A DNA stretch of 37,863 nt, from contig NZ_JALUKE010000063.1 of the NCBI RefSeq assembly GCF_027056685.1, positions 1-37,863 on the forward strand, given 5' to 3'. This document shows positions 9,887-24,381 of this stretch, in pieces. The notes under the pieces are model-generated. The model was not told where the DNA came from, did not search any database, and was given only the letters and a program-made list of their open reading frames with translations. The first letter of the stretch is position 1. Each line of letters begins with the position of its first letter. The stretch is from Sulfurimonas sp. (GTDB taxonomy: Bacteria; Campylobacterota; Campylobacteria; Campylobacterales; Sulfurimonadaceae). The translations under genes were made by a program, and so were the position numbers.

Positions 9887-11779
9887 TTATAACGCTTTAG
9901 CAATAATTCTATTTAAGCGTACAACAAAATCTGCTGTATCATCAAGTTCTTGACCATCATATAATTTTGCTTGATCTAAAAGGACATGTGCTGCATCTTC
10001 TATTAAATTAACATCAGCACTCTCTTTGAGTTTTTCCACAAGCTCATGCTTAGGATTAATCTCTAAAATTGGTGCAGGCTCTGGTGCATCTGTTGCTTGC
10101 CCCATCTGTTTCATCATTTGAGCCATCATATAAGCTGGATCTTCTTTATCAATTTTAATAGCAACAGGAGAGTCTGTAAGTTCAGTTGTTACATCAACTT
10201 CTTTTACGCTATCACCAAGAATTTCTTTAAGTTTTTTTGTAAAATCTTCATACGATTTTGCTAACTCTTCTTTCTCCTTTTTATCATCTTCGCTCTCGTC
10301 AAATTTTGCATCTGCAGCAGGAATAAGTTTATACTCTTTATATTCAGTTACCATTGGGAAAATGATAGTATCTACCTCTTCATTAAGAAGAAGAACATCA
10401 ATGCCACGAGCTTTAAATTTTTCTAAGATTGGTGAGTGTTTTAGTAAATCAAGAGATGTTTTTGCTGCCAAATAATAAATCTCTTTTTTCTCTTCATCCA
10501 CATTTTTCACATAATCTTCAATAGTAATCATCTCGTCACTATTAAGAGAGTTAAATTTAAGAAGTTCTAAAATTTTCTCACGGTTCCCCATATCACTATA
10601 AAGTCCCTCTTTAAGTACATTACCAAACTCTTTGTAGAAAGTATTGTACTTATCTGAATCTTTTTTCATCATTTTAGAGAGTTCAGAAAGCACTTTTTTC
10701 ACAGATGCATTTCTAATTTTACTCATCACTGGATTTGATTGTAAAATTTCACGACTTACATTCAATGGTAAATCTGCTGAATCAATCACACCACGCAAGA
10801 AACGCAAGTATGTTGGCATAAGCTCTTTTTCATCATCTGTAATAAATACACGATTAATGTAGAGTTTAATACCTGGTTTATAATCAACTCTATAGATATC
10901 CATAGGTGCTTTACTTGGAATATAAAATAGCGTTGTATATTCAATAGCACCTTCTGCTTTATGATGTGTCCATGCAAGAGGCTCTTCTGATGAGTGTGCA
11001 ATTGTCTCATAAAATGATTTGTAATCTTCATCTTTTAGTTCACTTTTTGAGAGTGTCCAGAGTGCATTTGCAGCATTGATCTGTACATTTTCTATCTCAG
11101 TTTTAGCAGGCTCTATCTCTTTGCCATCATCATCTGTTTTTGCTGGAATTGTTTTCTCTTTATCCATAAAAATTGGAAATGCAATGTGATTAGAGTATTT
11201 TTTAATAATGCTCTCAACTCGATAAGTCTCTAAAAATTCCTCTTCACCATCATTTAAGTACATAATAATTTCAGTACCATGAGAATCTTTTGAAGCATCT
11301 TCAATTTCAAATTCACCTGTACCATCACTTATCCATTTATAAGCTTTTTCCTCACCTGCTTTTTTAGTAATAACTTCTACTTTTTTTGCAACCATAAATG
11401 CAGAGTAGAAACCAACACCAAACTGACCAATAAGATTAGAATCCTCTTTTTGATCACCTGTAAGATTTTCTAAAAATGCTTTCGTTCCAGATTTTGCAAT
11501 AGTTCCAAGATTATTCATTAAATCTTCTTCATTCATACCAATACCAGTGTCACTAAGAGTAAGAGTTTTTTTCTCTTTATCTATTTTAATGTCAATACGA
11601 GGGTTAAATGAAACATTCTTATATTTTTCATCTGTTAAAACAAGCATATTGAGCTTATCCATAGCATCAGATGCATTAGAGACTAATTCACGAAGAAAAA
11701 TCTCCTTATTTGAATATAGAGAGTGTATCATAAGTTGTAAAATTTGATTTGCTTCTGTTTGAAATTGATGTTTAGCCAT
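9887..11779 (-). CDS. htpG: Chaperone HtpG (Hsp90)
   Basis: QTEANQILQLMIHSLYSNKEIFLRELVSNASDAMDKL, DTGIGMNEEDL, GQFGVGFYSAFMVA, SREILQSNP. Confidence 0.98.
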   Translation of the reverse strand: MAKHQFQTEANQILQLMIHSLYSNKEIFLRELVSNASDAMDKLNMLVLTDEKYKNVSFNPRIDIKIDKEKKTLTLSDTGIGMNEEDLMNNLGTIAKSGTKAFLENLTGDQKEDSNLIGQFGVGFYSAFMVAKKVEVITKKAGEEKAYKWISDGTGEFEIEDASKDSHGTEIIMYLNDGEEEFLETYRVESIIKKYSNHIAFPIFMDKEKTIPAKTDDDGKEIEPAKTEIENVQINAANALWTLSKSELKDEDYKSFYETIAHSSEEPLAWTHHKAEGAIEYTTLFYIPSKAPMDIYRVDYKPGIKLYINRVFITDDEKELMPTYLRFLRGVIDSADLPLNVSREILQSNPVMSKIRNASVKKVLSELSKMMKKDSDKYNTFYKEFGNVLKEGLYSDMGNREKILELLKFNSLNSDEMITIEDYVKNVDEEKKEIYYLAAKTSLDLLKHSPILEKFKARGIDVLLLNEEVDTIIFPMVTEYKEYKLIPAADAKFDESEDDKKEKEELAKSYEDFTKKLKEILGDSVKEVDVTTELTDSPVAIKIDKEDPAYMMAQMMKQMGQATDAPEPAPILEINPKHELVEKLKESADVNLIEDAAHVLLDQAKLYDGQELDDTADFVVRLNRIIAKAL

Positions 11780-22819: not shown

Positions 22820-23362
22820 ATGACTGCCATGGATTTAAAACTTATAAAGATGGTGAGTGACCACTACTGGATCAAGCGTGATTCAGTAGTAGATAAAATC
22901 TCTTTTAAAGGGCGTACTTTTTATAATAAATTTGAAAAAGTAAATGCTCCTCTCACGCAAGCAATTATTAACAAACACATCAAAGGTGAAATCACTGTTG
23001 CACACTCTGTTGCAGACAAAAAAGGTGTAGTTGAAAATATTGTTATTGATTATAATGGAAGAGATCCTGAAAGATTTTATCATCGTGCACAACTTCTTCT
23101 TCGCGAAGAGGGTTATATCAACTTTACAGCGTATGAGACAAAGACTAAAGGGCATCTCCATCTTTATATCCATAAAGGGCATACTACGCTGCAAGAAGCT
23201 ATACAACTTGGAAAGATGATAAGTATGAAACTTGCTGCTAAACAGCCAAAACAGTGGAAGATGTTTCCTAACAACGATACTCCAGAAGAGTACAACATAC
23301 TGACACTCCCTTATGAGGTTTATGCAAAAGAGCGTGGAGCATCTTGGTCAAAACATATGTAA
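22820..23362 (+). CDS. DUF1882-type conserved hypothetical protein (Cj0403-like by position)
   Basis: Conserved-looking 180-aa ORF directly after glyA, matching the position of a DUF1882 protein in Campylobacter. Confidence 0.7.
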
Positions 23363-23400
23363 AATATATTAGACTTCTTGCAGAACTTAGATATGTTTCA

Positions 23401-23501
23401 GAGGAAAGAAAAAAAGATGAAATTGTGCAAAATCTTTTTTGAAGCGTAGCTACAGCTACGGTGAGAAAAAGTTTTGTGCAAGTTCGCTTTTTTTATTCCT
23501 C
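23401..23501. repeat. Internal imperfect hairpin (left arm of the element)
   Basis: GAGGAAAG-A7-... pairs with ...T7-ATTCCTC; apex CGTAGCT-AC-AGCTACG at 23445-23460. Confidence 0.65.
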
Positions 23502-23508
23502 CCTTTGG

Positions 23509-23607
23509 GCAATTTATAGAGAGCTTTACTCTGCGTTAGATAACCTTCACCGTAGCTACGGCTACGCTGAAGAACATCTGCCTTAATTAAAACTCTCTAT
23601 AAATTGC
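23509..23607. repeat. Internal hairpin (right arm of the element)
   Basis: GCAATTTATAGAGAG (23509-23523) pairs perfectly with CTCTCTATAAATTGC (23593-23607); apex TTCACCGTAGC-TACG-GCTACGCTGAA. Confidence 0.7.
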
Positions 23608-23703
23608 TGAAACATATCTAAGTTTTGCAAGAAGTCTATTTATAACTTGTAACATTGTAATATTTTTGGTATTATTGAAAAAATAAAAAATTGAGGTGAA
23701 ATT

Positions 23704-24381
23704 ATGGATGAGAAAAACGAACTGAGTGACATTGTACTAAACAAAGGTGGTTCATCGAATTCCAATAAAAAAATTATATTAGCTATTGCGACACTTGGCG
23801 TTGTGCTCATTGTAGTCGTTATGCTTATGAACTCAATAAATTCAAAAGGAACAGGTAATCTACCTCAAGCTGTTCTTCCTCCTGAACCAAAAGCACAAGT
23901 GGCAAGTGAAAATGCCCTCGATAAAGAACCTCTTTTTGAAGATGTTCCTGTAGTACAAGAGAACAAACAAGAAGATACAAATCTTGACCATATTGCAAAA
24001 AAACTCAAACAAGAGAGTGCAGCGACACAGGTAGAAAATATAGAAGAACCTGTAAAAACTACTCCAACAATACAAACTGTACAAAAAAAACAAAGAGTAG
24101 TAAAAGCTAAAGTTTTACCTAAAAAAGTTAAAAAAACTCATGAAAAAGTTGCAATACTAAAGCACGCTTATTTTGTACAGGTAGGTTCTTTTTCAAGATA
24201 TAAACCAAATAAAAAGTTTTTAAATTCAATTACAAAACTAGGCTATAAATATTCTTATCATAAAATTAAAAATATCAATAAAGTATTGGTAGGTCCTTTT
24301 AAGACAAGAAAAGAGGCAAACAAAGCAAAAGCGATACTACGTTCAAAAGTTGTGCGTGGAGCATTTTTAGTTAAACTATAA
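23704..24381 (+). CDS. SPOR-domain membrane protein
   Basis: Single N-terminal TM (IILAIATLGVVLIVVVMLM), low-complexity linker, C-terminal SPOR-like HAYFVQVGSFSRYKPNKKFLNSITKLGYKYSYHKI...KVLVGPFKTRKEANKAKAILR. Confidence 0.88.
   Translation: MDEKNELSDIVLNKGGSSNSNKKIILAIATLGVVLIVVVMLMNSINSKGTGNLPQAVLPPEPKAQVASENALDKEPLFEDVPVVQENKQEDTNLDHIAKKLKQESAATQVENIEEPVKTTPTIQTVQKKQRVVKAKVLPKKVKKTHEKVAILKHAYFVQVGSFSRYKPNKKFLNSITKLGYKYSYHKIKNINKVLVGPFKTRKEANKAKAILRSKVVRGAFLVKL

Follow-up and report, generated by a model that had tools for sequence, protein, structure and literature searches.

The window, by which we mean the whole stretch of DNA analysed (37,863 nucleotides) from a sulfur-oxidising bacterium, carries between a DUF1882 gene and a SPOR-domain gene a small gene-free element that we read, with a probability of roughly 85%, as a non-autonomous type II MITE, mobilised in trans by an IS5-type transposase and bearing a portable core that is selected for its folded single strand. 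Two lines of evidence carry this reading. The ends of the element, its target-site duplication and its distribution are those of a mobile element with an identifiable partner insertion sequence (IS), whilst its interior shows extensive covariation and is found, at almost the same length, between many unrelated ends.

Much of the preliminary description of this DNA is borne out by the sequence and by its predicted fold: the 32-bp inverted repeat and the two hairpins within it are present, and the element lacks a credible ORF. Folded as RNA, positions 23370-23638 reach -130.9 kcal/mol, against -56.9 ± 4.6 kcal/mol for dinucleotide shuffles (z = -16.2), with none of 200 shuffles equally low. The intergenic setting is likewise upheld by Pfam domain matches, the upstream neighbour (22820-23362) matching PF08966 (DUF1882; E = 2e-37) and the downstream neighbour (23704-24381) matching PF05036 (SPOR; E = 2.8e-11). 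Residues 39-175 of the DUF1882 protein also show a weak match to an AEP-TOTE primase domain (E = 0.0006), which falls short of the cut-off. Alignment of copies sets the limits of the element proper at AGACTTC...GAAGTCT, and two details of the earlier description change as a result of the closer analysis. The junction is four-way rather than three-way, since a CCC-TTT-GGG mini-hairpin separates the two long hairpins. In place of TA, the sequence repeated at both ends is the 3-bp ATT, the TA falling within an ANT pattern. The features are as follows.

23368-23370, no strand: left target-site duplication, ATT (type ANT), 3 bp, the same as 23638-23640
23371-23637, no strand: whole element, a gene-free and putatively trans-mobilised MITE of 267 bp, with copies of constant length elsewhere
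23371-23402, + strand: left terminal inverted repeat, which is the 5' arm of stem P1; this helix (helix 1) is 98.3% paired, with compensatory change at 17 of 20 pairs
23403-23500, + strand: left hairpin P2, the better fold being on the + strand; the strand designated a (reading AATCAAGGC..AACGCAGAGT) is the better one in all 22 nonredundant copies from Campylobacterales
23501-23509, + strand: mini-hairpin P3, CCC-TTT-GGG, at the junction, found throughout the family
23510-23605, + strand: right hairpin P4, the module matched by covariance models R1 and R2; the better fold is on the - strand
23528-23537, + strand: 5' side of the conserved internal loop of P4, ACTCTGCGTT, which also served as a search pattern
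23580-23588, + strand: 3' side of the same loop, GCCTTAATT; the consensus is GCCTTGATT, from which the window copy differs by one base
23606-23637, - strand: right terminal inverted repeat, the 3' arm of P1, placed by complementarity and by alignment of copies
23638-23640, no strand: right target-site duplication, ATT, 3 bp, matching the left copy

Mobility and the partner insertion sequence

The preliminary description had proposed looking for further copies of the element, for empty sites in relatives and for full-length transposase elements sharing its ends, and all three exist. The other copies in the source genome comprise one that is complete (98%), one that is diverged (78%) and two truncated where a contig stops (96% and 99%). 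Among 198 relatives, 59 have related copies, mainly those of the same genus, and two genomes from another family of the order (G122 and G157) hold full-length copies at 71-72%, with at least three per genome. The site occupied in the window is empty in 28 of the 30 relatives that have the orthologous gene, and in the closest relative (97% flank identity) it carries an internally deleted copy. This deleted copy (G022:C10, 4330-4492; locus L354) is 163 bp long and lacks bases 96-191 of the element, a loss that recombination between the two similar hairpin tips (CGTAGCTAC) might have produced. Exact 3-bp repeats flank 31 of 50 AGACTT-ended copies and every one of these repeats is ANT; when right flanks were swapped at random (2000 trials), exact repeats averaged 13.2 and never exceeded 23.

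The complete transposons with the same ends are found in relatives and are 896-949 bp long, mostly with ANT duplications (L137, L174, L175, L130, L179 and L199). Each has two overlapping reading frames carrying HTH_Tnp_4 and DDE_Tnp_4, for which the best model is the IS5 transposase model NF033581 of NCBIfam; because the gene is split, each ORF falls below the whole-protein cut-off of that model. The outer ~17 bp of the left repeat, AGACTTCTTGCAGAACT, is the counterpart of the ends of four of these transposons (L137, L174, L175 and L130), and the end variants TTGCATAACC, TTTCATAACC and TTGCAAAAC seen among the small elements also have counterparts among the IS. Given ANT duplications and IS5-family transposases in the end-matched IS, the element is not of the IS630/Tc1-mariner type with TA that had been suggested for it. 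ISL2-type, which we take to be the subgroup name for IS5-family elements with ANT duplication, would be the appropriate label.

The MITE proposed at the outset, and its mobilisation in trans, are established about as well as sequence evidence allows: the element is short and gene-free, shares its ends with an IS, is flanked by a target duplication, and is present in multiple copies with empty sites elsewhere. In the mechanism we envisage, an IS5-family DDE transposase would recognise AGACTTCTTGCA(A/T)AAC ends, duplicate ANT and move the element in trans. The source genome (a 92%-complete assembly) yielded no transposase associated with such ends, and the enzyme has presumably been lost there, been missed, or been a horizontal visitor. 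A different origin, in which the element is a decayed insertion sequence (a type I MITE or relic IS, the latter also raised in the preliminary description), would account for ends that match an IS, but it is hardly credible: BLASTN finds similarity to the partner IS only within the terminal ~19 bp, with nothing significant beyond, and a decayed element would be expected to show neither constant length nor strong covariation. As far as tested, a relic IS is rejected for the family as a whole. Coreless simple MITEs of 59-130 bp with AGACTTC ends are present in several genomes (L106-L108, L110, L143, L144, L148, L153 and L163).

Covariation, symmetry and strand preference of the fold

Compensatory change, which had been named as the check on a structural RNA, is abundant. 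In an alignment of 55 copies found without use of the loop motif (A1), 96.6% of pair cells hold standard pairs and two-sided compensatory changes are seen at 62 of 95 pairs; cells changed on both sides total 740, compared with 212 in shuffles and no more than 155 in controls with one side slid. Amongst copies at least 97% alike, pair differences are almost always single (47 single, 2 double), whereas amongst copies 70-80% alike, double differences predominate (about 4,100 single, 12,000 double). Single changes in recent copies and double changes in old ones indicate mutation followed by compensation.

Conservation is not confined to pairing. Loop bases in A1 are more conserved than stem bases, and nothing in the family is more constant than the mini-hairpin, CCC-NNN-GGG. 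Of 91 copies, 54 have GNA or its complement TNC as the triloop, where 12.5% would be expected. Across a broader set of 51 aligned elements, sequence is conserved almost solely at the mini-hairpin and the motif, whilst 60 of 69 consensus pairs are seen as two or more Watson-Crick types; motif conservation in this set is biased by the search, although the motif is likewise conserved in A1. Maintenance of the core fold by selection is strongly supported. The preliminary description had set structured RNA and MITE against each other as readings: the conserved single-strand structure stands, the choice between the two does not, since the element is a MITE with such a core. Rfam 15, searched at permissive and gathering thresholds with 18 diverse loci besides the window copy, gave nothing at gathering score and only chance-level miRNA matches.

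The core has a two-fold design. In 55 of 60 loci fetched from gammaproteobacterial genomes, the broad covariance model R2 matches on both strands, with the CCC-NNN-GGG mini-hairpin common to both matches, so that the element can be written as end, reversed module, CCCNNNGGG, module, end. Gammaproteobacterial elements use one module twice, in inverted orientation, for their two hairpins; divergence of the left module sets the window copy and its relatives apart. Several groups also have single-module elements of about 160-176 bp with ends of their own. The ancestral design would have been two inverted copies of the module around CCC-NNN-GGG, an arrangement in which each DNA strand, and RNA read in either direction, has one a-oriented module.

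Folding of the two strands separately reveals a clear asymmetry within the module. The a strand is the better fold in 42 of 47 single modules, in 22/22 left and 21/22 right modules from Campylobacterales, and in 41/49 and 39/49 others; RNA and DNA folding parameters give the same sign. Swapping the conserved loop for a perfect stem makes the preference grow, G-U pairs then being about twice as common on the a strand (117:55, 98:53 and 45:17), which speaks against an artefact of the loop. This preference implies that the selected form is single-stranded. By contrast, the outer stem P1 has no excess of G-U over A-C (16:26 in cluster counts), so that its structure could be kept at the DNA level; a pure RNA reading of the whole element is rejected for the same reason. 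For the module itself, RNA is somewhat favoured over DNA, because tolerance of G-U is the usual mark of RNA and because, in the few copies lying in tRNA operons, the a strand is the tRNA strand.

One core between many ends

In other genomes of the same genus, the core recurs with up to 87% identity (query 29-244) between ends GGGCACCTCTAAAA. Copies with GGGCACC ends have exact 4-bp duplications in five of six cases (TTAA, TTAA, TTTA, TTTA and ATAA), and complete IS with GGGCACC-type ends also exist (L115, L117 and L123). Transposases of this type fall under the same broad IS5 model as the L137 protein but have almost no detectable similarity to it. With the same core lying between the ends of different transposases, the core behaves as a module riding several transposon systems.

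The source genome itself contains another element built in this way, also 267 bp long, on contig C7 at 10168-10377 (L476, 1473-1739), with ends AAGTGCCTGATCATAAT. Both modules are recognisable in this C7 element between unrelated 27-bp ends (AAGTGCCTGATCATAATAAATGTCATA), and a clear target duplication is absent. More widely, elements of this architecture, 263-273 bp long and with at least six unrelated kinds of end sequence, occur in Campylobacterota, Gammaproteobacteria and Betaproteobacteria, and at least 41 motif matches fall in elements of 258-273 bp with many unrelated ends. Elements with AGGGCCTGTT ends have CTAG duplications, and those with T(T/C)ACCGCACC ends have TA duplications in about half of copies, as judged by eye. 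In one Sulfurimonas genome, STE_9 (L255, L307 and L101-L103), the module is found under two kinds of end, GGGCACC and ATTACCGCACC, and in both two-module and single-module forms, the single form being 166 bp long with a TTAA duplication.

It is an even bet, in our judgement, that what is really inherited as a unit here is the core: a portable, two-fold-symmetric module, selected as folded RNA or single-stranded DNA, that would repeatedly have taken on new transposon ends and so parasitised several unrelated transposase families across several phyla. If so, it would define a class of selfish nucleic-acid modules that ranks above the MITE family.

The taxonomic range is broad. The covariance model of the right hairpin, R1, finds matches in 108 of 399 Campylobacterales genomes (27%), spread over 30 of 87 genera. 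A scan of named genomes with the motif ACTCTGCGTT N40-44 GCCTTGATTR, for which about five chance matches are estimated, returned at least 119 stretches from Campylobacterota, Gammaproteobacteria, Betaproteobacteria, Bacteroidota, Desulfobulbaceae and others. R2 matches 51 of 185 genomes (28%) in the class of Colwellia, the Gammaproteobacteria, against 6 of 148 in the class of an Oscillospiraceae genome and 8 of 149 in that of a Saprospiraceae genome; a single genome can contain up to 137 matches, the number found in Colwellia demingiae. A full-length relative (72%) of a Kosakonia element is located on a plasmid of Citrobacter braakii (NZ_CP136728.1, 89794-90061), which is a plausible carrier between genera.

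What may read the core, and its relation to known elements

What might such a core do? The most likely choice, although we hold it only tentatively, is that it acts as an RNA hairpin whose purine-rich internal loop would be recognised by a ribonuclease or RNA-binding protein common to many hosts, with the result that the element might be tolerated or amplified. A simple role in host transcripts is a different matter. Single-module elements show no preferred orientation relative to neighbouring genes, which argues against such a role, as does the location of intergenic copies, mostly between divergent gene pairs (38 of 89, by crude ORF calling), where read-through transcription is least expected. 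By the same crude calling, the preference for divergent over convergent pairs rules out a general role as terminator.

The choice we place next, possible and somewhat less probable, is that the core acts as DNA, its cruciform or single-stranded hairpins being bound by transposase or by a replication protein during transposition or replication and raising the frequency of transposition. Its two-fold symmetry fits a DNA site, P1 is free of G-U bias and there is no preferred orientation relative to genes; moreover, in 54 of 91 copies the triloop on one strand is GNA, an unusually stable DNA triloop. The loop is not decisive, however, since the strand opposite GNA reads UNCG, a stable RNA loop. 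Against a DNA role, the ends of clearly different transposases carry the same core, so that any transposase-specific role would have to be shared among them, and the G-U bias of the module fits RNA better, though G-T pairs in DNA are possible. Considerably less probable again is a fold that nothing reads, a by-product in an ordinary type II MITE whose palindromes were perfected by template switching or hairpin-copy repair in replication. The P1 arms, 98% complementary despite freely varying inner sequence and without strand bias, are what such repair might leave, and transcripts of bacterial MITEs often fold (PMC10969869). This explanation does not sit well with unpaired loops (ACTCTGCGTT / GCCTTGATT) that exceed the stems in conservation in copies found independently of the motif, with a G-U preference on the a strand that strand-symmetric repair would not produce, with recent copies that differ by single changes rather than instant double ones, or with a length fixed at 263-273 bp across phyla.

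The least probable of these alternatives, and one we consider very unlikely, is that the module was originally a host RNA element, such as a processing hairpin of tRNA operons, that was captured by transposon ends. It draws on modules without recognisable ends in tRNA operons of named Campylobacterota genomes (L239 3405-3475 and 3775-3850; L271 3835-3900; L290 2600-2680). Each is sited 15-27 nt upstream of a tRNA-Val or tRNA-Met, and in every one of them the tRNA strand is the a strand. Only 7 of 180 motif matches, however, have a tRNA within 700 bp, a figure that also eliminates tRNA operons as the main habitat; the source genome has no module at that tRNA position, and the tRNA-operon copies are equally well explained as old insertions whose ends have been lost.

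To return to the MITE with a selected core, its interior appears to be previously undescribed as a component of otherwise unrelated small mobile elements in very different bacteria. Searches of freely accessible literature, by words and by literal sequence, returned no description of the core, which may have an earlier local name; the MITE papers on Thiomargarita and P. syringae concern other elements. MITEs are usually defined by their ends and seen as passive IS leftovers. Here the ends are exchangeable and it is the folded interior that is constant, at near-fixed length, in around a quarter of the sampled Gammaproteobacteria and Campylobacterales, implying either a widespread host factor that reads the hairpin or a new route by which non-autonomous elements switch transposases. 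The covariance models should allow easy annotation of the family where genomes now show unannotated intergenic DNA.

Amongst known elements, the two-ORF, ~900 bp IS5 elements with ANT duplications (L137, L174, L175 and L130) share terminal sequence and duplication with the window element, which is non-coding and has the ends alone in common with them. REP, BIME and REPIN sequences are also intergenic palindromic repeats. They are short, linked to RAYT (HUH) transposases and without terminal repeats or target duplication, whereas the ends and duplications of the window element are of DDE type, so that the REP-like character once suggested for it falls away. MITEPsy1 of Pseudomonas syringae, a 100-bp element with CTAG/YTAA duplications that was observed transposing into sacB (PMC3189936), is similarly small and gene-free with IS5-type terminal repeats, a short duplication and mobilisation in trans, the last of which is probable for the window element; the latter differs in its length (267 bp), its ANT duplication and its structure-conserved core shared across ends. 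Correia elements of Neisseria, ERIC and QMITE2 are, like the window element, intergenic and foldable, and effects on transcripts via RNase III or RNase E have been reported for Correia elements and ERIC (PMC10969869). Each is described from certain genera or groups and has a single set of ends, unlike the present core with its many ends, its presence in several phyla and its covariation in nearly every helix (for Correia and ERIC, the distinction is drawn from descriptions). Finally, the MITEtron of Thiomargarita, which combines a group I intron with a MITE and has TATAG direct repeats, is an isolated case from one genome (PMC4853749); it also joins a structured module to MITE ends, the structure being a different one.
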